This document shows, in pieces, positions 25,363 through 39,258 of a DNA stretch of 64,000 bases (positions within the stretch are counted from its first letter, which is position 1; each line of letters starts with the position of its first letter). The position numbers were made by a program, and so were the translations under genes. Origin of the DNA: an uncultured Verrucomicrobiota bacterium (lineage in GTDB: Bacteria; Verrucomicrobiota; Verrucomicrobiia; Opitutales; Opitutaceae). The stretch is from positions 1 through 64,000 of the forward strand of contig CAIRBK010000048.1 in NCBI GenBank assembly GCA_903876795.1. Direction: 5' to 3'. The notes below the pieces were generated by a model. It was not told the origin of the DNA. It did no database searches and saw only the letters and a list, made by a program, of their open reading frames with translations.

Positions 25363-28144
<2,782 letters not shown>

Positions 28145-28215
28145 CCGCGCGCATTTTTAAGAACGGATAACCCCGATACGTTTCCCCAAGTCCACCCTGG
28201 AAATCAACCTACCCC

Positions 28216-30273
28216 ATGAAATTCCCAACCCTCCTATACCTCGTATTCCTATCTCCGCTTGCCACCCTAAACGCAGCCACCCGCGACGACGCCATCCTCA
28301 CACCCAAACAAGCCGCTGCTGAACGCGACCGCTCCATCGCCGCCGCCCTCGCCAGCAAAACCAGCCTGTCCGATCTCTTCGATACCACCCAAATCACGGG
28401 CGCGCAGATCGACGAGTCCGCCGTCAAGGCCATCATCCGCGTTGATCCTGCCGGACTCAGACCGGGCTCCGTTAAGTCACTCGCCGAGGGTTTCACCCTT
28501 GCCTACGCCAACCTCGACAAAGGCATCCCCACCAAGCTCTCAATCGCCCCCGGGACTTACCGTGAAGTGGCACCCGAAGCCCCATTCAAGTGGAGCGAGC
28601 AAGAGATCGCCCGAAAAACCCTATTCATCATCGAAGGCGAGGAGCCCGAAAAAGTCATTTGGTCAGGGGCCGATGTCTTTCCCCTGTCCGCCTGGAAAAA
28701 CGAGGGCGACGGCTACTATTCCCACGATTGGCCTTATCAATGGGGTTTCGGCACACAGCACGCTTCAAGCGGAACGAAGGCGGCGATCGCCTATCGGGCC
28801 GAACAAGTTTTTATCAGCGACCGCCCGCTCAAACCCCGCCTGCTGGAAATGGTGCAAATGGCCAATTTATGGGGTGTCAAGGGAACCCCAAAGGACGCCC
28901 CCCCGCCCAGTTGGACCTATACCCACACCGTAGCCCCCAAGACGGTGCTAAACGAATGGGAGTTCGGCGTCCTGGAACGCGAAGAGAATGGCCGGAAACT
29001 CTGGATGCGTCTCCCCCCAGGCGAAAAACCCGACGAAACCAGTATCGAAGTCTCGGTTCGTCGCCATCTGCTCACCTTTGTCGGAAAAGAAAACCTGGTC
29101 ATCCGCAACCTCAACATCGTCCGCGTGGCCAACGGCGGAGCCATCGGACCGGATCTGGCGCCGGCTCGCGTACCCATCCGCTTCGCCAGGTATGCCAACC
29201 AAGCGCGCGGGCAAAACATCTTGATCGAGCGCTGCCGTTTTCTCTGGAACAGCGGTAAGGGCTTTCACGTTGACGGAGACAACATCACGCTCCGCGACGT
29301 AGAATCCTCCTACAATGGTTACAGCGGCATGGAAGTCACCGGATGTAAGAACTCCCTCTGGATTCGCACCACCACCAATTTCAACCTCTGGCGAGCGAGG
29401 TGGGGCGGCACCCGGGATTATTGGACCGGCGGCGTGAAGGTGACCCGCATGGACGGGCATCTCGTTCTGGGCCACACCAGTCTGGGCAACCCGGACTGGG
29501 GCTTCTGGCATGACATCTGGAACCGCCGCATCTACATGCAAGACGTGGTGCTAATCGACAATAACAACGGACTTTTCTGGGAGCTTTCCCAAGGTCCCTT
29601 CGATGGTCGGCGCATCCTCTCCGCCAATGACACCATGGCTTACCACTCCATTTTGGTCGGTCCCTGTCGCTTGAGCGATTCCATCCTTTCCACCGGACGC
29701 CAGGCCTCGTCGCAGAACCGTCACTTTGTCGTCCGCATGGGCAGCACCAACCGCGCAAAAGACAACACCGAGCTGGACCGACTTCTGAAGGAAAGCGGCC
29801 TGACCCACGGTTTTGAACTGCAACGAACCATTGTCACCGCCAGTCCTGACTTTGGCCGCAACCTCTTCCACTATCGCGACGAACGCGACCCCGAGGCCTC
29901 CGGCTTTACCCCCATCCTCTACCGCGGCACCGACAACGTGCTCTGGGCTCCCTCCAACGAACTGCCCGCCACCGTCGAAATCAAGAAACGTGAAAAAGTC
30001 ACCGACGGCACCAACCGCGACCTGACTAGCACGGCCAAAGACCGCATCAACCTTGAAGATTGGATCAGCGGCAAGGGCTTCCCCGGCCAGGAAATCAACG
30101 CCCGCGTCCTCGACCCCGGGTTCGTCGATCCGCTCAACGGTGACTTCCGCTTCCGCAAACAGAGCCCCTTGGCCAAAGAAGCCGGTCGCTACCTCCAGTT
30201 CAGCCTCAGCCCCGAACAACGCTCCGCTATCAAATCCTACCTCGAAGGCGGCTGGCTTGATAACAAGGACTGA
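28216..30273 (+). CDS. Secreted right-handed parallel beta-helix protein
   Basis: The 685-aa protein has a signal peptide (MKFPTLLYLVFLSPLATLNA). The central part is a beta-helix with stacked turns: NLVIRNLNIVRVANGG, NILIERCRFLWNSGKGFHVD, NITLRDVESSYNGYSGMEVT and DGHLVLGHTSLGNPDWGFW. This architecture is found in polysaccharide lyases, GH28-like and GH141-like enzymes and epimerases. I could not assign a family or catalytic residues. It follows the GH1 gene by 71 bp and is the last of this AraC-headed run. It probably acts on the polysaccharide outside the cytoplasm. Confidence 0.8.
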   Translation: MKFPTLLYLVFLSPLATLNAATRDDAILTPKQAAAERDRSIAAALASKTSLSDLFDTTQITGAQIDESAVKAIIRVDPAGLRPGSVKSLAEGFTLAYANLDKGIPTKLSIAPGTYREVAPEAPFKWSEQEIARKTLFIIEGEEPEKVIWSGADVFPLSAWKNEGDGYYSHDWPYQWGFGTQHASSGTKAAIAYRAEQVFISDRPLKPRLLEMVQMANLWGVKGTPKDAPPPSWTYTHTVAPKTVLNEWEFGVLEREENGRKLWMRLPPGEKPDETSIEVSVRRHLLTFVGKENLVIRNLNIVRVANGGAIGPDLAPARVPIRFARYANQARGQNILIERCRFLWNSGKGFHVDGDNITLRDVESSYNGYSGMEVTGCKNSLWIRTTTNFNLWRARWGGTRDYWTGGVKVTRMDGHLVLGHTSLGNPDWGFWHDIWNRRIYMQDVVLIDNNNGLFWELSQGPFDGRRILSANDTMAYHSILVGPCRLSDSILSTGRQASSQNRHFVVRMGSTNRAKDNTELDRLLKESGLTHGFELQRTIVTASPDFGRNLFHYRDERDPEASGFTPILYRGTDNVLWAPSNELPATVEIKKREKVTDGTNRDLTSTAKDRINLEDWISGKGFPGQEINARVLDPGFVDPLNGDFRFRKQSPLAKEAGRYLQFSLSPEQRSAIKSYLEGGWLDNKD

Positions 30274-30281
30274 GAGGAAAC

Positions 30282-30554
30282 ACGGCCTGTGTCTTCAGGC
30301 CCAATGCCGTCGTCCCTCCTTCCCAAGTATGCGTGGTCGCCACCGCCGATATCTCGCCCGCCTGGCGCATCGGCGTGCGCTCCCGTTATCCGCACATGCC
30401 CAGTGCAGGCGAGGGGCTCAGTCACCAGGACTTCCCCGTCGTCTTCTGGCGGCAAGCCGGCGACCACGACTTCCTCCGCTGGCAGACGCGCATCGGCGAA
30501 AAACCTTACACCCAACCCGAACGCGACGATTTTACTAAGAACTTATTTATATAA
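30282..30554 (+). pseudogene. Unidentified coding remnant without a start
   Basis: One frame in the gap after the beta-helix gene reads as convincing protein: VATADISPAWRIGVRSRYPH and later FPVVFWRQAGDHDFLRWQTR with IGEKPYTQPERDDF. It ends at TAA 30552-30554 in an AT-rich stretch. Upstream it continues as AVVPPSQVCV back toward 30282 without a plausible start codon or leader. Its amino-acid quality contrasts with the non-coding neighbourhood, so it is probably the surviving internal part of a deleted gene. A small independent protein starting at GTG 30333 cannot be excluded. I do not recognise the family. Confidence 0.5.
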
Positions 30555-30806
30555 TTTTTTCCTATACTTTGGCAGGCGAGCGTGCGGGTAAACGACTACG
30601 TTGACCAGATACGGAAGCGTCATGTCTTTAAACAAATTGATTTTGATCGGCTTAAATCGTTTAAATCATAACTCATTGATAAAAATTGAATTAAAAATTT
30701 TTTTGGAAAAATTTTAGCATCGATGTCGAACAAGACAGCACTCGCGCGACTACTACATGAAGCTCGAATGTTTCGTGCTTCATTTCTAAACTCAAATAAC
30801 GTCATC
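30555..30806 (+). promoter_or_regulatory. AT-rich leader of the DGPF / ECF42 operon
   Basis: This 252-bp stretch is strikingly AT-rich for the window (for example TAAAAATTTTTTTGG near 30690-30705). It contains a short direct repeat in GGCTTAAATCGTTTAAATC around 30650-30667. It precedes an ECF-type operon, and such promoters are normally recognised by the sigma factor itself, but no -35/-10 pair can be assigned by eye. An ORF start at 30723 exists in frame with the next gene. The ATG at 30807 is preferred because it begins the signal peptide. Confidence 0.35.
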
Positions 30807-31238
30807 ATGAAACGTATCCGTTCCCTCGCCGCGCTCGCGGTCCTCATCCTTGCCATCCCGGCTGCTCGCGCCGAGATGTTTATTCTGACCATTTACGAAA
30901 CACCTGCTTCCCTGGCGCTGCGCTCCGACTCGTCGCCTAAGGGCGCGGACTACTGGAGTTCCTTCGCTGCTTATGGCGACAAGCTCAAGGCCGCCGGCGT
31001 GATTCGCGGCGGTGGCGCTTTCAAGACCGACGACACCGTGCGCACTGTCCAAGTGCGCACGGGCAAACTCAGTGAGCGCGCCGGAGCCTACGCCAAGAGC
31101 CCGGACCTGATGGGCGGCTATTTCCTCATCGACGTGCCCACGCTAGCAGACGCAGTTCGTTGGGCCTCCGAAATCCCGGCAGGGCTCGACTCCGCCGTCG
31201 AGGTGCGCGCCTTTTACCCCGTACCCGGAATGATGTAA
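30807..31238 (+). CDS. Exported DGPF/YCII-domain protein
   Basis: The 143-aa protein has a typical signal peptide (MKRIRSLAALAVLILAIPAA, cleavage ARA/E). A YCII/DGPF-type alpha-beta fold follows: MFILTIYETPASLALRSDS, YWSSFAAYGDKLKAAGVIRG, DLMGGYFLIDVPTLADAVRW and VEVRAFYPV. The DGPF tetrapeptide itself is replaced (AYAKSPDLMGG). It parallels the cytosolic neighbour almost segment by segment, so the two arose by duplication. DGPF proteins are the usual partners of ECF42 sigma factors, encoded just downstream. An exported copy is unusual and could act as an extracytoplasmic sensing component. Confidence 0.8.
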   Translation: MKRIRSLAALAVLILAIPAARAEMFILTIYETPASLALRSDSSPKGADYWSSFAAYGDKLKAAGVIRGGGAFKTDDTVRTVQVRTGKLSERAGAYAKSPDLMGGYFLIDVPTLADAVRWASEIPAGLDSAVEVRAFYPVPGMM

Positions 31239-31295
31239 GTTCACAAAACACCTTTGGCATCACTCCACAAAACCAAATCCAAACACATTCATAAT

Positions 31296-31658
31296 ATGCA
31301 ATACGCCATTTTAGTCTACGAAACCGAAGCCGATTTCGCGGCGCGCAACGATCCTGAAAAAGCCGGAGCCTACTGGGGTGCCTACGGCGCTTACAGTCAG
31401 GCGCTCGTAAAGGCCGGTGTGGCAGCGGGCGGTACCGGCCTTCACCCGACGAGTGTCGCCACCACGGTACGTATGCGTGATAACGGTCGTCTGGTACAGG
31501 ACGGCCCTTTCGCCGACACCAAGGAAATGCTCGGCGGCATTTTCCTGATTGACGTGCCTGATTTGGACACGGCCCTGTTTTGGGCGGCACGTTGCCCTTC
31601 AGCTGTGACCGGCAGCGCCGAGGTGCGCCCTTGCCTGCCACCGCCACCTTCCGAGTGA
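31296..31658 (+). CDS. DGPF/YCII-family protein, cytosolic partner of the ECF42 sigma factor
   Basis: The 120-aa protein MQYAILVYETEADFAARNDP carries the full signature VQDGPFADTKEMLGGIFLID followed by VPDLDTALFWAARCPSA and a closing VEVRP-like segment (SAEVRPCLPPP). DGPF proteins are small ferredoxin-like folds of the YCII superfamily whose biochemical role is unsettled. Their genes accompany ECF42 sigma factors. The start at 31296 is chosen because the homologous fold begins MQYAIL; 14 further codons upstream are open but unconvincing. Its stop overlaps the GTG of the sigma gene (GTGA), so the two are co-translated. Confidence 0.88.
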   Translation: MQYAILVYETEADFAARNDPEKAGAYWGAYGAYSQALVKAGVAAGGTGLHPTSVATTVRMRDNGRLVQDGPFADTKEMLGGIFLIDVPDLDTALFWAARCPSAVTGSAEVRPCLPPPPSE

Positions 31659-32899
31659 GTCCAGACGCCGCTCATCAGGAGGCGGCGCTTGCCGCCGTCG
31701 ATTTCACAGCCCGCTCCGCCTACGGCAGGCTTCTTGCCTACCTTGCGAAGCATTGGCGCGACCTCGCGGCGGCAGAAGACGCGCTCGCGGAGGCATTTGC
31801 CGCAGCGCTACGAGACTGGCCTACCGATGGTGTGCCGCGCCACCCCGAGGGTTGGTTGCTCACCGCCGCGCGCCGCCGCCTCATGGACGGCGCGCGGCAC
31901 GAGGCAGTGCGAGCCGCCGCCGAAACGGATATAGCTGCCACTCTTGAACGCCTATTGGAATCCAACTCCGCCACGATGACCGTCCCCGACGAACGCCTCG
32001 CTCTCATGTTTGTCTGCGCGCACCCGGCGATAGCCCCCGAGGTTCGCACGCCGCTCATGTTACAGACCGTGCTCGGCCTCGACTCCGAACGTATCGCCTC
32101 GGCCTTTTTAGTCGCGCCCACGGCGATGGCGCAGCGCCTGGTTCGGGCCAAGGCTAAGATTCGTGACGCCGGAATCCTTTTTAGCCATCCCGAGTCGGCC
32201 GAGCTCCCCGCCCGTCTCGATGCCGTGCTCGAAGGCATTTACGCCGCCTACGGCAGCGGCTGGAGCGAAACATCCGAGACCGGCGCGAACTCGCGCGGCC
32301 TTGCCCGCGAAGCTCTCTGGTTGGGCCGGGTGCTGGCGAGGCTGATGCCGTCGGAGCCGGAAGCGTTAGGGCTACTCGCTCTGATGCTTCACTGTGAAGC
32401 GCGGCGCGGGGCTCGCCATGACGCAGGCGGTGGTTTTGTTCCGCTCGACAAACAAGATACGGCCTTATGGTCGCAAGAAATGATGGACGAGGCCGAATCG
32501 AGGTTGTCCGAAGCCGCCCGCGAGGGACGTATCGGACGATTCCAGCTTGAGGCGGCGATCCAGTCGGCCCACGCGCGGCGAGCCCGCGATGGCAAAGTGG
32601 AATGGGACGTCATCGTTCGTCTTTACGACGGACTTTTGACCATAGCGCCCACCCTAGGCGCAATGGTCGGTCGCGCGGCGGCGCGAGCCGAAGCCGACGG
32701 CACCCTCGCTGGACTAGCGGATTTGAACACCCTGCCCAAGGACCGCTGCGCGGTTTACCAACCGGCCTGGGCCTTGCGCGCGCATTTGCTTCAACGCCTC
32801 GGGCGGTTAACTGAAGCTCGCGTCGCGCGCGATCAGGCGATTGGTCTTTGCGAAGATGCCGCAGTCCGAGCCTACCTGCGCAAAACGGTGCCGGACTGA
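31655..32899 (+). CDS. ECF42-type RNA polymerase sigma factor with C-terminal DUF6596-like extension
   Basis: The 414-aa protein starts at GTG 31655, overlapping the DGPF gene. Region sigma-2 is seen in YGRLLAYLAKHWRDLAAAED with AEAFAAALRDWP and GWLLTAARRRLMDG. Sigma-4 is seen in MLQTVLGLDSERIASAFLVA with TAMAQRLVRAKAKI. The long C-terminal helical part with LDAVLEGIYAAYGSGW, GLLALMLHCEARRGAR and YQPAWALRAHLLQRLGR is the extension typical of ECF42 (about 400 residues against about 180 for an ordinary ECF). That extension replaces an anti-sigma factor in control of the protein; none is encoded nearby. Targets likely include its own operon. Confidence 0.92.
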   Translation: MSPDAAHQEAALAAVDFTARSAYGRLLAYLAKHWRDLAAAEDALAEAFAAALRDWPTDGVPRHPEGWLLTAARRRLMDGARHEAVRAAAETDIAATLERLLESNSATMTVPDERLALMFVCAHPAIAPEVRTPLMLQTVLGLDSERIASAFLVAPTAMAQRLVRAKAKIRDAGILFSHPESAELPARLDAVLEGIYAAYGSGWSETSETGANSRGLAREALWLGRVLARLMPSEPEALGLLALMLHCEARRGARHDAGGGFVPLDKQDTALWSQEMMDEAESRLSEAAREGRIGRFQLEAAIQSAHARRARDGKVEWDVIVRLYDGLLTIAPTLGAMVGRAAARAEADGTLAGLADLNTLPKDRCAVYQPAWALRAHLLQRLGRLTEARVARDQAIGLCEDAAVRAYLRKTVPD

Positions 32900-32935
32900 C
32901 CGGCATCATGAAACCTGCGCACGTTCCCCCTTGAA

Positions 32936-32953
32936 ATGGTCGCCCGCGACCAT
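32936..32953. promoter_or_regulatory. 18-bp palindrome between the sigma gene and the exported hydrolase
   Basis: ATGGTCGC-CC-GCGACCAT is a perfect inverted repeat with 8-bp arms and a 2-bp centre, in the 149-bp gap. No T-run follows, so it is not an intrinsic terminator. The spacing is too tight for a good RNA hairpin but suits a dimeric DNA-binding protein. It lies 96 bp upstream of the next start codon and could be an operator of the hydrolase gene. Confidence 0.45.
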
Positions 32954-33048
32954 ACCACCATCCCCACCCGCGCACCGGGCGTGTACCGTCTCTCGGTTCT
33001 CTCGCCCCTGATGAGCCCCGTCAGTAAACCCCGAGCCCCAAATACCCC

Positions 33049-35703
33049 ATGTATCGCTTCCTCCCCGCCGCCGCCTGCGCCGCGTGCGGCCGCAAGCTCC
33101 AGACCCGGCCGGCCAGCTCCGGGCTTTTGGCATTTCACAAGAACGTCTGGCGCACCATCGGCCTTATCCTCTTGCTCGGTTGTCACGCACTCGCCTTCGG
33201 ACAATACGCGCCGCTCTTAAAAAATCCGGGCTTTGAGGAGGCGTTCGTTCCCCGGCCTCCCGGCAATGCCACCGACAAGGGTCAGGCCCTCGGCGAGGTG
33301 GCCCAAGGCTGGCAGGATGAGTCCACCTGGGCCGGCGTGACGGTCACCTATGCGCGCCACGAGGCGCAGCCGCACTCGGGCCGCTTCGCCCAGGAAATCA
33401 ACGTCACCCGCGTCGATAATGGCTTCGCGCAGTTCGCCCAGAGTATCTCATTCAAAAAAGGCGCCGGCCTGCGCGCGACCGTCTGGTTGCGCGGCGTGCC
33501 GGGGCAATCCGTCGCCGTGATGTTCCGCAACGGCGCGCCCAGTTGGAAAACCATCGCGAAAAAAAACGTCAACCTGACCGCCGAGTGGCAGGCCGTCCGG
33601 CTGATCGGTGTCCCGGACCAGGACTACGCCGGTTCGCTCATGCTGCAAACTTCCCAGCCTGCGCACTTTTATGTGGACGACGTGCAACTGGAGTTGATGA
33701 CCGAGGTCAGGGACGACGCGCCCGACAAGCGCGGCAACCTCATCGGCGGAGGCTCGTTTGAAACCGACGGGCTGCCCTACGGCTGGTCCTATCGCGCGGG
33801 CGGTTATGAGCACTTGGATTTAACTTGGGAAGATCGACCGCCCCAGTTCGCCGCAGAGGGAGCGGTGGGACAGCGGTCGCTCCAGTATGAACTGCCGCCC
33901 AAAGCGGCCCTGACCGTTTCTTCCCCCGTGTTCACCTTCAACGGCAACCGCCCGCACACGGCCAGCGTCTGGCTCAAAGCCAGCCAGCCCGACACACCCG
34001 CCCGCCTCTACTGGCCAGGGGCGGATGCGAGCCAGGATATCGTCGTCGGCACGGAGTGGGCGCGCTACACCCTGACCAGAAACCTGCCTTATCTGGATGC
34101 TCTCCGGCTGGCGGTTCATTTCGCCAATCGCGGCGGCCAACCCCTTACGGTCTGGATGGATGGCGCGGCGGTCGAAGAGGCCGCCAAGGCATCCGCGGTC
34201 TGGCAGGACGCGGCCCCGCACGCCGTGAGTTTAACCCTCGACCGGCCCGGGCATATCCTGCACGACGACGAAAAGGCTTTCGCCAAACTCTCCATCGCCC
34301 CCGAACCGCCCGCCGGGGCGACGTTGGCGCTGAAGGTCGAAAATCTCCTCGGCGGCGTGACCCCGTTGTCCGCGCTGGCCTTGCCGGCGGAAAACGTTGC
34401 GCTGCCCTTTTTCTCCGACCGCCCCCGCGGCTACTTCAAGCTGCACGCGACCGTGCTGGACGCCAAGGGAGGCGCCCTTTCCGCACCCGTGGAACTGATC
34501 TACACCCGCCTGCCCAAGCCGCGCGAAATCACTCCGTCAAACTCCTACTTCGGCGTCCATATTCCGCTCAATCCTTACTACATCGCCCTCGCCCGCGCCT
34601 CGGGGCACCGCTGGATTCGCATGCACGACACCTGCATGATCGGCAAATGGCCGCTGGCCGAGCCGCAGCCCGGTCAATGGAACTTCTACGACCAACAAAT
34701 CGACGCCGCCCACGGCGCGGGGCTGGCCATTCTGGGCATGTTGGACGGCGCCCCGGCGCGCGTCTCGGCGACCCCGCGTAAAGAAGGCGGCTACTGGAGC
34801 ATTTGGAACATTCCCAACGCCCCGGACGCCGAGGCGGCCTGGCGCGTTTACGTGCGCACCGTGGTCGGCCATTACCAGGGGAAAATCGACCACTGGGAGG
34901 TTTGGAACGAACCGTGGGGCAAGTGGTGGCTGGCCTCCGGCGGCACAACCGAACTCTATGCCCGGTTTTTGAAAGCGGCCTTTGCGGAAACCAAAAAAGC
35001 CAACCCCAAGGCCCTGATCGTTGGTATTGATACAATGGCGGGACGTCCGTGGACGGAGAACGCATTAAAAGTGGCTGGAACCGAGCACTATGACTTTTTC
35101 TCGTTTCACGATTACGACGACGGCTTCGTCGGCGGACCGGAAAACCGCAGCAAGCAACAGGCGGAGACCTTCGCCGCCGCGCAAAATGCGGTGGGCACCG
35201 CCAAACCGTTGTGGAACACGGAGGGTGCCTCCGGGGCTGATTTCGGTTCTTGGTATGCACCACAAACCGGCGGTGTTCCGTCCCGCACCCAAGCGGCGCT
35301 TTACGTCCGTTACGACGTGAGCCAGCTCGCCAACGGCATCCAAAAGTTTTTCCTCTATTCCATCCAAGAGGGCACCGCGATGGGCGAGACGCACTACCGC
35401 GCCACCGAATACGACCGGGCCGTCAAACCCGCCGTCGCGGCGCGGGCGGTGCTCGCCTCGCTCGTGGACGGTGCGGGCATCCCCTTGCGCAGCGAGCCGG
35501 AGCCCGGCGTGGACGTTTACACCTTCCCCGCCCAGGACGGAAAACAGGTGCAGGTTTGGTGGTCGTTCGATGGAAAAACACACACCTTGCCGCTGCCCGA
35601 CCGCGCCCAGGTGCTGGATGTCTTCGGCTCTCCCGTTGACGCAAAATCCAAAACCGTGACGGTGACCGGTGAACCGCGCTACGTGATACTTCCTGCAAAA
35701 TGA
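33049..35703 (+). CDS. Exported clan GH-A hydrolase (GH39-like) with two CBM-like domains
   Basis: The 884-aa protein has a 40-residue lead and then a hydrophobic export segment (TIGLILLLGCHALAFG). LLGC could be a lipobox, so it may be a lipoprotein. Two CenC-like beta-sandwiches follow (about 60-225 with NPGFEEAFVP, and 225-375 with GGGSFETDGLPYGWS), then a spacer. From about residue 500 a TIM barrel begins: NSYFGVHIPLNPYY, HWEVWNEPWGKWW with predicted acid/base Glu621, and PLWNTEGASG with predicted nucleophile Glu725. WNEP plus a late TEG fits clan GH-A, nearest GH39-like. The substrate is unknown. A paralogue with the same layout lies at 42612. Confidence 0.8.
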   Translation: MYRFLPAAACAACGRKLQTRPASSGLLAFHKNVWRTIGLILLLGCHALAFGQYAPLLKNPGFEEAFVPRPPGNATDKGQALGEVAQGWQDESTWAGVTVTYARHEAQPHSGRFAQEINVTRVDNGFAQFAQSISFKKGAGLRATVWLRGVPGQSVAVMFRNGAPSWKTIAKKNVNLTAEWQAVRLIGVPDQDYAGSLMLQTSQPAHFYVDDVQLELMTEVRDDAPDKRGNLIGGGSFETDGLPYGWSYRAGGYEHLDLTWEDRPPQFAAEGAVGQRSLQYELPPKAALTVSSPVFTFNGNRPHTASVWLKASQPDTPARLYWPGADASQDIVVGTEWARYTLTRNLPYLDALRLAVHFANRGGQPLTVWMDGAAVEEAAKASAVWQDAAPHAVSLTLDRPGHILHDDEKAFAKLSIAPEPPAGATLALKVENLLGGVTPLSALALPAENVALPFFSDRPRGYFKLHATVLDAKGGALSAPVELIYTRLPKPREITPSNSYFGVHIPLNPYYIALARASGHRWIRMHDTCMIGKWPLAEPQPGQWNFYDQQIDAAHGAGLAILGMLDGAPARVSATPRKEGGYWSIWNIPNAPDAEAAWRVYVRTVVGHYQGKIDHWEVWNEPWGKWWLASGGTTELYARFLKAAFAETKKANPKALIVGIDTMAGRPWTENALKVAGTEHYDFFSFHDYDDGFVGGPENRSKQQAETFAAAQNAVGTAKPLWNTEGASGADFGSWYAPQTGGVPSRTQAALYVRYDVSQLANGIQKFFLYSIQEGTAMGETHYRATEYDRAVKPAVAARAVLASLVDGAGIPLRSEPEPGVDVYTFPAQDGKQVQVWWSFDGKTHTLPLPDRAQVLDVFGSPVDAKSKTVTVTGEPRYVILPAK

Positions 35704-35785
35704 GTCCGCCGGTTGGTTGGGATGATGCGAAACGGAAAAACGGCCTCACCTCTTGCCGCGATTAACCCGTCCCTGCACCGCCACC

Positions 35786-36664
35786 CTACTTTCGGTGCAT
35801 GGCCCGGTAGGCACCGGGTGAGAAACCAAGGCGAACTTTGAATACCTTCGTAAAGTGGAACCGGTCCGAAAACCCGGACTGCGCGGCGATAACCTCGATC
35901 GTCTCGTCGGTCGCCACCAATTGCCGCGCCGCCGCCTGTACCCGCCGCTCCAGCCGGTATTGAGCCGGACTCATGCCCGTGCCTGCCCGGAACCGCCGCA
36001 CAAACTGCGTCGCGCTGAATCCGCATAACTTCGCCAACTCCCCGTTGTCCGCCGGACCCTCCTCGGGCCGTTCCATCCGCGTCAAGGCCGGAGCCAGCCG
36101 CGCCGACTCGCTCCGCCAGACCTCCGCCGCCCGCCGGTCCTCCTCCGACAGGCTGTCCAGAAAACCCGCCATCACCGCGTGGAGAAAAGCCAGCGCCCAC
36201 CCATGCGCCGCCAGCGAGGGTTCGCCCACCCTGTCCGTCCCCTGCCCCCACCGCGCCGCCAAACCCGCCAGCTCCCCCTCCAGCGGCAGGCTGAACGGAC
36301 GATTGCACCGCTCTTTCACGAGCTGGACGGGCAAGCCGTGAAACGCGAAATGCTGGTAATCCTGCGTCACCGGCCCTTGCACCGCCGTGCGAAACCTCAT
36401 CCACGCGGGTAACACATACACCCGCCCTGGCTCCAGCGGCAACCACCGCCCCTCGTGCTCGATCCGCGCCCCCTTGCGGTCTTGCACATACAAGCGCCAA
36501 AAGGGACTGCAAATATCTAGGCGCCAACCTGTTTCGTCCAATCGGAACCGACGGCTCACCAGCAGGCGCGGCTGGGCAAAACCCAACCATTCCTCCTTCG
36601 CCGAGCCTCGGGTGGCACCGTGATACATGCTCGGAATACACACATTTATGCCCCGCTCCGCCAT
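35786..36664 (-). CDS. AraC-family transcriptional regulator (second of three)
   Basis: The 292-aa protein has an N-terminal sensing region (LDICSPFWRLYVQDRKGARI, RVYVLPAWMRFRTAV) and a C-terminal double helix-turn-helix (LAKLCGFSATQFVRRFRAGT with GMSPAQYRLERRV, then VIAAQSGFSDRFHFTKVFKV and FSPGAYRAMHRK). It is closely similar to the AraC protein at 60683-61558 in both halves. The frame is open to 36826, but the start at 36664 is preferred: the extension would cross most of the divergent promoter and gives no conserved sequence. It faces the GH29 gene at 36783 and probably activates the long downstream run. It ends in TAG. Confidence 0.88.
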   Translation of the reverse strand: MAERGINVCIPSMYHGATRGSAKEEWLGFAQPRLLVSRRFRLDETGWRLDICSPFWRLYVQDRKGARIEHEGRWLPLEPGRVYVLPAWMRFRTAVQGPVTQDYQHFAFHGLPVQLVKERCNRPFSLPLEGELAGLAARWGQGTDRVGEPSLAAHGWALAFLHAVMAGFLDSLSEEDRRAAEVWRSESARLAPALTRMERPEEGPADNGELAKLCGFSATQFVRRFRAGTGMSPAQYRLERRVQAAARQLVATDETIEVIAAQSGFSDRFHFTKVFKVRLGFSPGAYRAMHRK

Positions 36665-36692
36665 AGTAAAATCCCCCGTCTTGCCGTATAGT
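36661..36692. promoter_or_regulatory. Candidate AraC-type operator shared with the third AraC module
   Basis: CCATAGTAAAATCCCCCGTC followed by TTGCCGTATAG at the AraC end of this divergent region closely matches CCATAGCAAAAATTCCCCCC-GCCGTGTAG at 61591-61619. Each copy lies beside one of the two similar AraC genes. Conserved blocks are CCATAG, the A-run, a C-run and GCCGT(A/G)TAG. Paralogous regulators beside shared non-coding DNA suggest a binding site. TATAGT at 36687-36692 could also act as a -10 for the rightward GH29 gene. Confidence 0.5.
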
Positions 36693-36782
36693 CGTGATGC
36701 AATCTGCGGCCAAGCTTCCCCCGCTGCGCTTACCGCCCTCTGCCCGCTCCATCCTACTCTCTCCGTCATCAAACCCATCGCC

Positions 36783-38138
36783 ATGTCCTCCGCCGTTAAC
36801 AATCCCGCCCACGCCTGGTTTCCCAATGCCCGCTACGGACTCTTCCTCCACTGGGGTCCCTACGCCCAATACGCCCGCGGCGAACAAGTGCTCATCCGCG
36901 AGATGCTCGATCAACGCGCTTACGCCGCCCGCGCCTGCGCCTGGAACCCGCAAAAATTCGACGCCACCGCGTGGGCCCGCGCCGCCGTCGCCGGTGGCTG
37001 CCGCTACGCCGTTTTCACCACCCGCCACCATGACGGCTACTGCCTTTGGGACACCGCCACCACCGACTACTCCTCGGCCAAGCAGGCCCCGCAGCGCGAC
37101 TTCGTGCGCGAATACGTCGATGCCTTTCGCGCCGCCGGACTGCGCGTGGGGCTGTATTATTCCTGGAATGACCTGCGCATCCCCGCCCTCTACGCCGGCC
37201 CCGAACGCGATCCCCTCGGTTGGGCCGCCATGCGCGACTACGTTCACGCCCAAGTCGAGGAGTTGCTCACGCGCTACGGCCCAATTGACATGTTCTGGTT
37301 CGACGGCGCCTGGCCCCGCCACGCGCTCGACTGGGACAGCCCCGGCCTGGTCGCCCGCATGAGGGAGCTCCAGCCCGGCATGATGATCAACAACCGCCTC
37401 GCCGAGATGCCGGGCGAGAAGATCCACGACCCCACCCAGCTCGCCAGCCCCGACGAGCACGGCGTCCACGAGGTGGATGATCGCGGGGACTTCGGAACGC
37501 CCGAACACCACATCACGGCCTCGGCCTCCCGCCTCTGGGAATCTTGTCAGGTCACAACCTGGCGACTCTGGAGCCACACCACCGGCGACCGCTGGCGGGC
37601 GGCCGACCAGTGGCTCGACATGCTCACCGACGCCTCCTGCAAAGGCGGCAACCTCCTGCTCAACGTCGGCCCCACTGCCGACGGCGAACTCCCGCCCGAG
37701 TGGCTCGCCCGCAACCGCGAGGTTGGCGAGTGGTTGCGCGTCCACGGCGAAGCTGTTTACGGCGGCGATCTCACGCCCTGCGACGTGTTTGAAAGCACCC
37801 TGCTCGGCGGTCGCCAAGTGCGACGTGGCAACACCCTCTACGTCCTCTGTCGCTTCTGGCATGGCGGCGAAGCGATCCGCCTCGCCGGTCTCGATGCCGA
37901 CATCACCCGCGCCACCCTCCTCGGCTCCGACGCCGCCCTAACCGCCTCGCACGATGCCTACGGCGTGACCTTGCACGGCGCACCGGCCACTCCGCCGACC
38001 GCGCTCTTTCCCGTGCTCAAGCTCGAATGCGCCGCCGAGCCCCGCGCCCTCGCCACCTACCACCCCGGCCTCTGGGGCGGAGACCCTTTTCGCCTCCACG
38101 CCTGGGCCGCCGCCCGCGGCCATGGATTCAACGCTTAA
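36783..38138 (+). CDS. GH29 alpha-L-fucosidase (second)
   Basis: The 451-aa enzyme shows the GH29 pattern: FPNARYGLFLHWGPYAQYAR, YAVFTTRHHDGYCLWDTAT, DFVREYVDAFRAAGLRVGLY and IDMFWFDGAWPRH, with predicted nucleophile Asp174. KGGNLLLNVGPTADGELPPE follows near the barrel end. The C-terminus is shorter than in the first GH29 here and lacks a clear discoidin domain. No signal peptide is visible. The ATG at 36783 starts well-conserved sequence; the open frame upstream runs through the promoter. It heads the longest collinear gene run of the window, and the next gene starts at or just after its stop. Confidence 0.92.
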   Translation: MSSAVNNPAHAWFPNARYGLFLHWGPYAQYARGEQVLIREMLDQRAYAARACAWNPQKFDATAWARAAVAGGCRYAVFTTRHHDGYCLWDTATTDYSSAKQAPQRDFVREYVDAFRAAGLRVGLYYSWNDLRIPALYAGPERDPLGWAAMRDYVHAQVEELLTRYGPIDMFWFDGAWPRHALDWDSPGLVARMRELQPGMMINNRLAEMPGEKIHDPTQLASPDEHGVHEVDDRGDFGTPEHHITASASRLWESCQVTTWRLWSHTTGDRWRAADQWLDMLTDASCKGGNLLLNVGPTADGELPPEWLARNREVGEWLRVHGEAVYGGDLTPCDVFESTLLGGRQVRRGNTLYVLCRFWHGGEAIRLAGLDADITRATLLGSDAALTASHDAYGVTLHGAPATPPTALFPVLKLECAAEPRALATYHPGLWGGDPFRLHAWAAARGHGFNA

Positions 38139-39258
38139 CCTCGCCATGCACCGCGACCGCCTCGTCCTCCTCCCGCCCAACCGCGTCTGGCGAACCTACC
38201 CCGGCGGGCGCACCCTCGATCAACTCGCCGGAGTGCCCGCGCCCGCCGACTCGCACTTTGCCGAGGACTGGATCGGCTCCGTCACCCGCGCCACCAACGT
38301 CGGGCGCGAGTCCATCGCCGAGGGCATCTCCCAAGTCCGCCTCTCCGCCGCGCCCGATGCGCCCACCCACGATCTCGCCGCCTTGCTCGCCGCCGACCCC
38401 GTCTACTTCCTCGGCTCCGCGCACGTCGCCGCCTTTGGCCCGCAACCGCAGTTGCTGGTCAAGTTCCTCGACTCCGCCACCCGCCTCCATTTCCAGGTCC
38501 ACCCCACCCGCGACTACGCCCGCCGCGTGCTCGGCGCGCCCAGCGGCAAAACCGAGGCCTACCACATCCTCGCCGCCCGCACCGACCTCGCCGAGCCGCC
38601 CTACATCTACGTCGGCTTCCAACGCCCACCCTCCCCGGAACAACTCAAGCGCCTGATCGAGACCCAAGACATCGCGGGGATCGAAGCCTGTTTCGACAAA
38701 ATCGAGGTCCGTCCCGGCGACACCTTTATCATCCCCGGCGGCACGCCGCACGCCCTCGGCCCCGGCGTGTTCATGGTCGAAATCCAGGAGCCGAGCGACC
38801 TGGTCATCCGCTTCGAATTCGAGCGCGGTGGCTACGTCCTGCCCGAGTCCGCCCGCTTCATGAACCGGGGCATCGACTTCGCCCTCACGATCTTCGACCT
38901 CGCGCCACTCAACCGCGCCGCCATCGACACCCGCGTGCGTTGCCAACCGCGCCGCCTCGCCGATCACGGCGGCGGCTCGTTCACCGAGGAGTTGATCGGC
39001 CCCGCCCAGACCGACTGCTTCCGCGTCACCCGCACCTCGCTGGCCGGGCCGGTCGTCCGCCCAAGCGGGAGCTTTTCCATCGCCATCGTCACCGAAGGCC
39101 GCGTGCGCGCCGAGACGCCGGGCGGCGAACCGGTGGAACTCAACTGCTACGACCACGTGCTCATCCCCGCCGGGCTCGGGGCGCTAACCTGGCACCCGCT
39201 CACCGCAGAGGCCTCGGTGCTGGAGTGCCATCCGCCCGCTCCAATTACCCCGCCTTAA
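38122..39258 (+). CDS. manA: Class I mannose-6-phosphate isomerase
   Basis: The 378-aa protein interconverts mannose 6-phosphate and fructose 6-phosphate. The metal-binding pattern of type I phosphomannose isomerases is visible: LHFQVHP (His123, Gln125, His127 region), KTEAYHIL (Glu145) and PGGTPHALGPG (His210). A second ATG at 38146 (codon 9) would avoid the 17-bp overlap with the fucosidase gene and starts closer to family members beginning MHxxxLxLxPNRVWRTYxGG, so it may be the real start. Its place in the run implies that mannose released by the GH2 mannosidase is phosphorylated and enters glycolysis. No hexokinase is in the window. Confidence 0.85.
   Translation: MDSTLNLAMHRDRLVLLPPNRVWRTYPGGRTLDQLAGVPAPADSHFAEDWIGSVTRATNVGRESIAEGISQVRLSAAPDAPTHDLAALLAADPVYFLGSAHVAAFGPQPQLLVKFLDSATRLHFQVHPTRDYARRVLGAPSGKTEAYHILAARTDLAEPPYIYVGFQRPPSPEQLKRLIETQDIAGIEACFDKIEVRPGDTFIIPGGTPHALGPGVFMVEIQEPSDLVIRFEFERGGYVLPESARFMNRGIDFALTIFDLAPLNRAAIDTRVRCQPRRLADHGGGSFTEELIGPAQTDCFRVTRTSLAGPVVRPSGSFSIAIVTEGRVRAETPGGEPVELNCYDHVLIPAGLGALTWHPLTAEASVLECHPPAPITPP

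Follow-up and report, generated by a model that had tools for sequence, protein, structure and literature searches.

A predicted exported YCII-fold paralogue in first position marks a variant ECF42-type sigma factor operon

An operon of three genes was found in the window (the whole stretch of 64 000 nt analysed, from an uncultured Verrucomicrobiota bacterium) that, judged from its sequence, represents a variant of the ECF42 operon, in which the known pair of DGPF gene and sigma factor gene is extended by a predicted exported YCII paralogue in first position. The reading that we favour, and hold to be somewhat more probable than all others together, is that this exported copy is an envelope-side output that is co-expressed with the ECF42 sigma factor and originated from a duplicated DGPF gene.

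Organization of the operon

The original prediction had placed an ECF42-type operon at 30807-32899, and these coordinates proved correct: the region holds three genes on the plus strand, encoding first a predicted exported YCII protein, then a DGPF protein of the cytosol and lastly a sigma factor of ECF42 type, and is preceded by a candidate promoter element.

30724..30750, + strand: ECF42-like promoter element TGTCGA-N17-CGAC (pattern match, conservation in close operons)
30807..31238, + strand: predicted exported YCII-fold protein with the DGPF loop lost, 143 aa, mature from Glu23 (translation, Pfam, signal-peptide rule)
31296..31658, + strand: cytosolic DGPF/YCII protein, 120 aa, motif DGPFADTKE (translation, Pfam, PDB relative 1s7i)
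31655..32899, + strand: ECF42-type sigma factor with a DUF6596 C-terminal extension (translation, Pfam; start picked from the sequence)

Both of the first two products matched Pfam YCII (PF03795, cut-off 24 bits), the exported protein with 38.3 bits over residues 25-136, after the signal, and the cytosolic protein with 62.8 bits. They are tandem paralogues, as had been proposed, being 36 % identical over 117 columns (E=2e-24), and they account for both of the YCII matches in the 3.57-Mb assembly. The likely start of the sigma factor gene, chosen from the sequence, is the GTG at 31655, which gives a 4-nt overlap with the DGPF stop codon (GTGA).

Of the two flanking genes, both searched against Pfam, 28216-30273 matched Beta_helix and 33049-35703 matched glycosyl hydrolases below the cut-off. 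By eye, the genes around the operon (positions 25363-39258) resemble those for carbohydrate degradation and include fucosidase-like, GH1-like, beta-helix, GH10/39-like and mannose-6-phosphate-isomerase-like genes and an AraC-type regulator.

Export signal of the first gene product

The product of the first gene begins MKRIRSLAALAVLILAIPAARA-EMFILTIYE..., in which residues 1-22 form the predicted signal peptide. This segment has a positive n-region, a 14-residue uncharged core and an AxA site, and carries neither a lipobox Cys nor an Arg-Arg pair; as far as sequence can tell, it is a textbook Sec signal with the YCII domain straight after it, and the protein itself would be expected outside the cytosol. 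Signal peptides were called with a hand-made rule (positive start, uncharged hydrophobic core, Ala at -1), by which all five members of the clade described below have a signal-like N-terminus, bearing out the signal peptide that had been proposed for the exported copy. The Ala preceding the mature end is invariant in the five sequences and the remainder of the signal has diverged, which fits the expectation for a signal peptide. Over the signal segment, whose letters are not conserved, dN exceeded dS in the closest pair (0.10 vs 0.06).

A survey of ECF42-related loci for exported paralogues, as the original prediction had suggested, gave a positive call in five of 114 distinct YCII ORFs, all five belonging to one clade. 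The ORFs (at least 60 aa, E up to 1e-4, duplicates removed by their last 70 residues) came from loci collected by similarity to the exported copy, to its relative in genome G231 or to DUF6596, and the survey of YCII proteins is hence biased. A signal peptide arising by chance was considered and ruled out, the rule being positive in 5/5 members of the clade and in 0/109 of the other distinct YCII ORFs, compared with a background of 11/550 among the ATG-started frames of at least 45 codons in the window, a figure that includes true secreted genes. Eight more loci outside the clade were judged cytosolic by eye, four of them new (L152, L153, L154 and L158) and four being places already in the set.

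Loss of the DGPF loop and retention of the fold

None of the five clade members has DGPF or DGPY, in agreement with the earlier claim that the exported copy had lost the tetrapeptide. Across the whole loop, DGP[FY]A..KE, the exported copies retain D in 2/5, G in 1/5, P in 4/5, and K and E in 0/5 sequences, whereas the 26 cytosolic copies, one of them a fragment, have P in 26/26 and D, G, K and E in 25/26 each. The rest of the YCII fold was retained, again as proposed: 34 columns are invariant in the five sequences, and the mature window protein, modelled from a 32-sequence alignment, gave a pLDDT of 93.1 and a pTM of 0.83. This model supersedes an earlier one, built from a 3-sequence alignment with the G451 protein first, which had a pLDDT of 67.9 and gave a weak fold search. 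Judged by its sequence, the exported copy is thus a YCII-fold protein of DGPF descent but, by motif, no DGPF protein.

The mature model has the ferredoxin-like fold of the solved YCII members. The DGPF protein PA1349 (PDB 1s7i), the sole sequence relative in the PDB at the limits used, shares this fold (Foldseek TM 0.78, E 1.7e-8; VIA Z 13.7, rmsd 3.5 over 118 residues) but keeps the loop, as DGPFAETKE, that the exported copy has lost. Met 7 of the PA1349 crystal chain aligns to the first residue of the cytosolic copy in the window, so that PA1349 shows no space in which a signal peptide could lie. YciI/HI0828 (PDB 1mwq) is likewise ferredoxin-like (Z 10.6, rmsd 2.6 over 89 residues), at 20 % identity; it is not known to be linked to any sigma factor.

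The loci L073, L074 and L075 gave three pairs, not independent of one another and without the window and G231 copies, in which the dN/dS of the exported gene was 0.12, 0.16 and 0.16, indicating purifying selection; in the same pairs the values were 0.13-0.16 for the DGPF gene and 0.08-0.16 for the sigma factor gene.

Assignment of the sigma factor to ECF42

The sigma factor ORF matched Sigma70_r2 with 28.4 bits (cut-off 24) and Sigma70_r4_2 with 23.5 bits, just under the cut-off of 25.7. More than 200 residues follow region 4, and in these DUF6596, which we take to be the mark of ECF42 sigma factors, scored 102.2 bits, while TPR_8 reached only E=0.086. The sigma factors of the four relatives scored 93.6-96.3 bits for DUF6596, and their TPR matches were likewise under the cut-off (best 24.4 bits vs 27). 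A tie between DUF6596 and ECF-type sigma factors is described in the available text of PMC11119718, in which ECF42 is not named. The ORF at 31296-31658 is a YCII/DGPF gene adjoining the sigma factor gene, an arrangement given as a feature of ECF42 in the accessible part of PMC8999054. No anti-sigma factor was found in the two flanking genes by Pfam or, by eye, among the other ORFs of at least 250 aa in positions 26000-38500.

A second DUF6596 sigma factor is present in the genome of the window (contig C69:503-808, locus L150); its N-terminal part is lost near the contig start and it has no YCII gene in this assembly. Other DUF6596 sigma factor lineages of the class (L028, L031, L034 and L036) have two or three YCII genes close by, in many cases on the downstream side of the sigma factor gene, and none of these YCII genes was positive by the signal-peptide rule.

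Promoter element

ECF42 promoters are of the TGTCG...CGTC-like type, and a candidate element of this type starts at 30724 in the window, its end lying 56 bases before the start codon of the exported gene. Close operons were defined by a sigma factor match of E <1e-90 and an upstream YCII gene (26 of the 75 distinct sigma factor ORFs), and the search for the element extended up to 300 bases from the first YCII domain. TGTCGA-N17-CG(A/T)C preceded the first gene in 22 of these 26 operons, with a spacer of always 17 bases (the four without it being L004, L025, L029 and L084), as against 11 of 5200 shuffled upstream regions. A slightly wider pattern gave three matches among the remaining 49 sigma factor ORFs, many of which have little upstream sequence. 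Within the window, a looser pattern had 15 matches against 10.5 expected, which is not significant alone.

All five exported-type operons have the element before the exported gene, ending 48-60 nt ahead of its start codon, and in operons without an exported gene it ends 43-81 nt ahead of the YCII domain; with such similar distances, the exported gene occupies the usual first-gene position. The same element precedes the DGPF gene on the Neorhizobium plasmids L145 and L148. Three sequences printed for Sinorhizobium meliloti RpoE10 and its targets in PMC6180224 contain TGTCGG-N17-CGTC, which resembles the window element; the N17 spacing was counted in this analysis.

Exact matches to TGTCGA-N16/17-CGAC in the window's own genome numbered 12, vs five for the reversed pattern. 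The other 11 lie inside open frames, and formally so does the match in the window, owing to an upstream in-frame ATG; for this reason no regulon was drawn from them. Between the element and the start codon there is a leader hairpin (30756-30777) followed by T-rich sequence, one of two terminator-like structures found where 3.7 were expected, which is no more than chance would give. AT-rich blocks at 30531-30560 and 30621-30710 (10-30 % GC per 30 bases) lie upstream of the element in GC-rich surroundings.

Distribution and phylogeny of the exported copy

Signal-bearing relatives were found in G231 (loci L023/L042), in G451 (L044, whose protein is that of L073, from a Verrucomicrobiaceae MAG), in L074, from the Verrucomicrobiota MAG KLAP45, and in L075, from a Verrucomicrobiales MAG. 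The kinship to G451 would place the genome of the window in Verrucomicrobiota. The order exported YCII, cytosolic DGPF, sigma factor was the same in all five loci. When 47 YCII proteins were placed in a midpoint-rooted tree, the exported five grouped as one clade (95/89), nested in the 31-member DGPF clade that goes with this ECF42 subgroup (97/98), the window copy standing on a long branch (1.63). Their five host sigma factors fell in three places in a tree of 27 sigma factors. A single shared origin of the exported gene and its sigma factor without loss was ruled out, the AU test giving p=3e-6 when the hosts were held together. On the evidence of these trees, the exported gene probably arose once and was afterwards lost repeatedly or passed between operons.

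Among 384 genomes sampled from the window's class, a profile of three exported copies detected the clade in two (with 249 and 236 bits), the next-best match being the window's own cytosolic copy at 117 bits; DUF6596 was present in 78 of the same 384 genomes (77 above the cut-off). In addition, the clade was found in 1/322 sampled genomes of the window's order and in 2/336 of the order of G231. These samples overlap, so that the counts are not additive, and about 10 first-look candidates were scored per genome, which allows for misses. Phyla beyond that of the window were covered by scanning genome contigs for matches to two strict peptide patterns, which returned 37 stretches, three of them relatives, and would miss diverged copies. 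No exported relative was present among 55 candidate stretches from viral contigs, the phage search gave no match, and the four plasmid records with a YCII match were all cytosolic by eye. The possibility, raised as grounds for rejecting the original prediction, of an exported copy that is widespread and has no tie to ECF42 is contradicted by this rarity and by the ECF42-type neighbour in 5/5 loci. No exported YCII protein alongside ECF42 was found in the accessible portions of the literature on ECF42, DGPF, YCII or DUF6596.

On a Fuscovulum ytuae plasmid (NZ_CP124537.1, L147:2014-2451), a 145-residue hypothetical protein with several hydrophobic stretches precedes a YciI-DUF6596 sigma factor pair. 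It is another envelope-type protein by an ECF42-like operon, and is not recognizably related to the exported YCII protein.

Alternative explanations

The original prediction had gone on to propose a signalling path across the membrane, in which the exported DGPF-like protein senses the outside and relays to the extension of the sigma factor. The exported gene is found solely beside ECF42, in all five loci, and the available text of PMC8999054 proposes that ECF42 is controlled by protein interaction via its extension, with the YCII protein a suspected participant, both of which speak for a relay. A sensor of this kind needs a membrane-spanning partner, however, and neither gene 2 nor gene 3 encodes one (best 19-residue Kyte-Doolittle means of 1.22 for the cytosolic DGPF protein and 1.32 for the sigma factor, as compared with 2.04 in the exported protein's signal region), which leaves the idea unsupported; nor was there an anti-sigma factor in the two flanking genes, and the loop common to the cytosolic partners has gone from the exported copy. 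Moreover, 21 of the 26 close ECF42 operons lack an exported copy and its hosts are scattered over ECF42 lineages. The relay is accordingly regarded as unlikely, and this part of the prediction was not upheld. That the two copies are family members of 36 % identity, encoded side by side, would also suit a gauge of secretion, in which slow export leaves YCII-folded precursor free to bind either the cytosolic DGPF protein or the sigma factor extension, the operon thereby sensing the load on Sec; an operon under its own control would make this a feedback loop. With the conserved loop lost and no common arrest-like sequence in the signal segment, such a gauge seems distinctly improbable. Slightly more doubtful again is the specific form in which precursor and cytosolic DGPF protein are rivals for the ECF42 extension and the sigma factor reads export efficiency, although, if true, it would make the operon a secretion-load sensor without a membrane protein of its own.

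Two further explanations would deprive the first gene of an exported function. As a decaying, functionless duplicate that sits in the operon by chance, it would be expected to be as rare and patchy as it is (2/384), and the window copy is the most diverged and lies outside the dN/dS pairs; the low dN/dS in the three pairs, the invariant columns and the well-folded predicted model of the window copy itself nevertheless make decay very unlikely. The real start might instead be the ATG at 30876, downstream of the hydrophobic segment, giving a second ordinary cytosolic YCII protein: the window has a Met right before the first strand, where the cytosolic copies begin. This start, which had been named as a refutation of export, is contradicted by the genes of the four orthologues, which lack any Met in the stretch from the signal to the first strand and have a signal-like N-terminus that ends in Ala before Asp, and by a coding-type GC3 of 0.74 over the segment vs 0.39 immediately upstream; we give it hardly any credence.

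A probable envelope-side output of ECF42

The favoured reading, that the exported copy is an output of the ECF42 system, would run as follows. A DGPF gene in an ancestral ECF42 operon would have been duplicated, the extra YCII gene now being the first; one duplicate would have acquired a Sec signal peptide while its DGP[FY]..KE loop disappeared, and the other would have remained in the cytosol with its loop kept. The operon is most likely read from the ECF42-type promoter TGTCGA-N17-CGAC, presumably by its own sigma factor, which when active would increase its own level and those of the cytosolic DGPF partner and of a soluble protein bound for the periplasm. The exported copy is most likely a small ligand-binding or catalytic YCII-fold protein, acting as an effector, and not a sensor wired to the sigma factor; its promoter-side position would suit an output better than a sensor. 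As the loop was kept in the cytosol and lost outside, the simplest reading is that it serves cytosolic work, be it catalysis or sigma factor contact, with the exported copy as an output produced alongside the sigma factor. The paralogue pair in one operon would thereby point to the DGPF loop as the likely sigma factor contact (or active site), and suggests that ECF42 responses extend, in some cases at least, to the cell envelope.

Outputs in the form of small effectors have precedent in the ECF42 group: overexpressed RpoE10 in S. meliloti raised a protein of hydrophobic-ligand-binding type and glyoxalase-like proteins, according to the available part of PMC6180224. The same text reports that the S. 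meliloti YCII-sigma factor operon was not raised by RpoE10 overexpression despite a similar motif, and autoregulation may therefore fail in the window operon too. A substrate or ligand of a DGPF protein was not found in the accessible literature around ECF42 and DGPF. The output model draws on five loci, a hand-made signal rule and an element that is missing from 4/26 close operons.

Comparison with known systems

Cell-surface-signalling ECF systems of the FecIR type have an anti-sigma factor that links the outside to the inside. The window operon differs from them in that no anti-sigma factor, membrane protein or receptor gene was seen in it. Known ECF42 operons, as exemplified by those of Sven_0747 (Streptomyces venezuelae), ECF-10 (Pseudomonas putida) and RpoE10 (S. 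meliloti), consist of a DGPF/YCII gene and a sigma factor with a TPR-rich C-terminal extension of about 200 residues, on which sigma factor activity depends. The window operon resembles these in its YCII/DGPF gene directly upstream of the sigma factor gene, the C-terminal extension, the lack of any visible anti-sigma factor and the TGTCG-type element, but differs from them in carrying, in first position, an extra, predicted exported YCII paralogue that has lost the DGPF loop.
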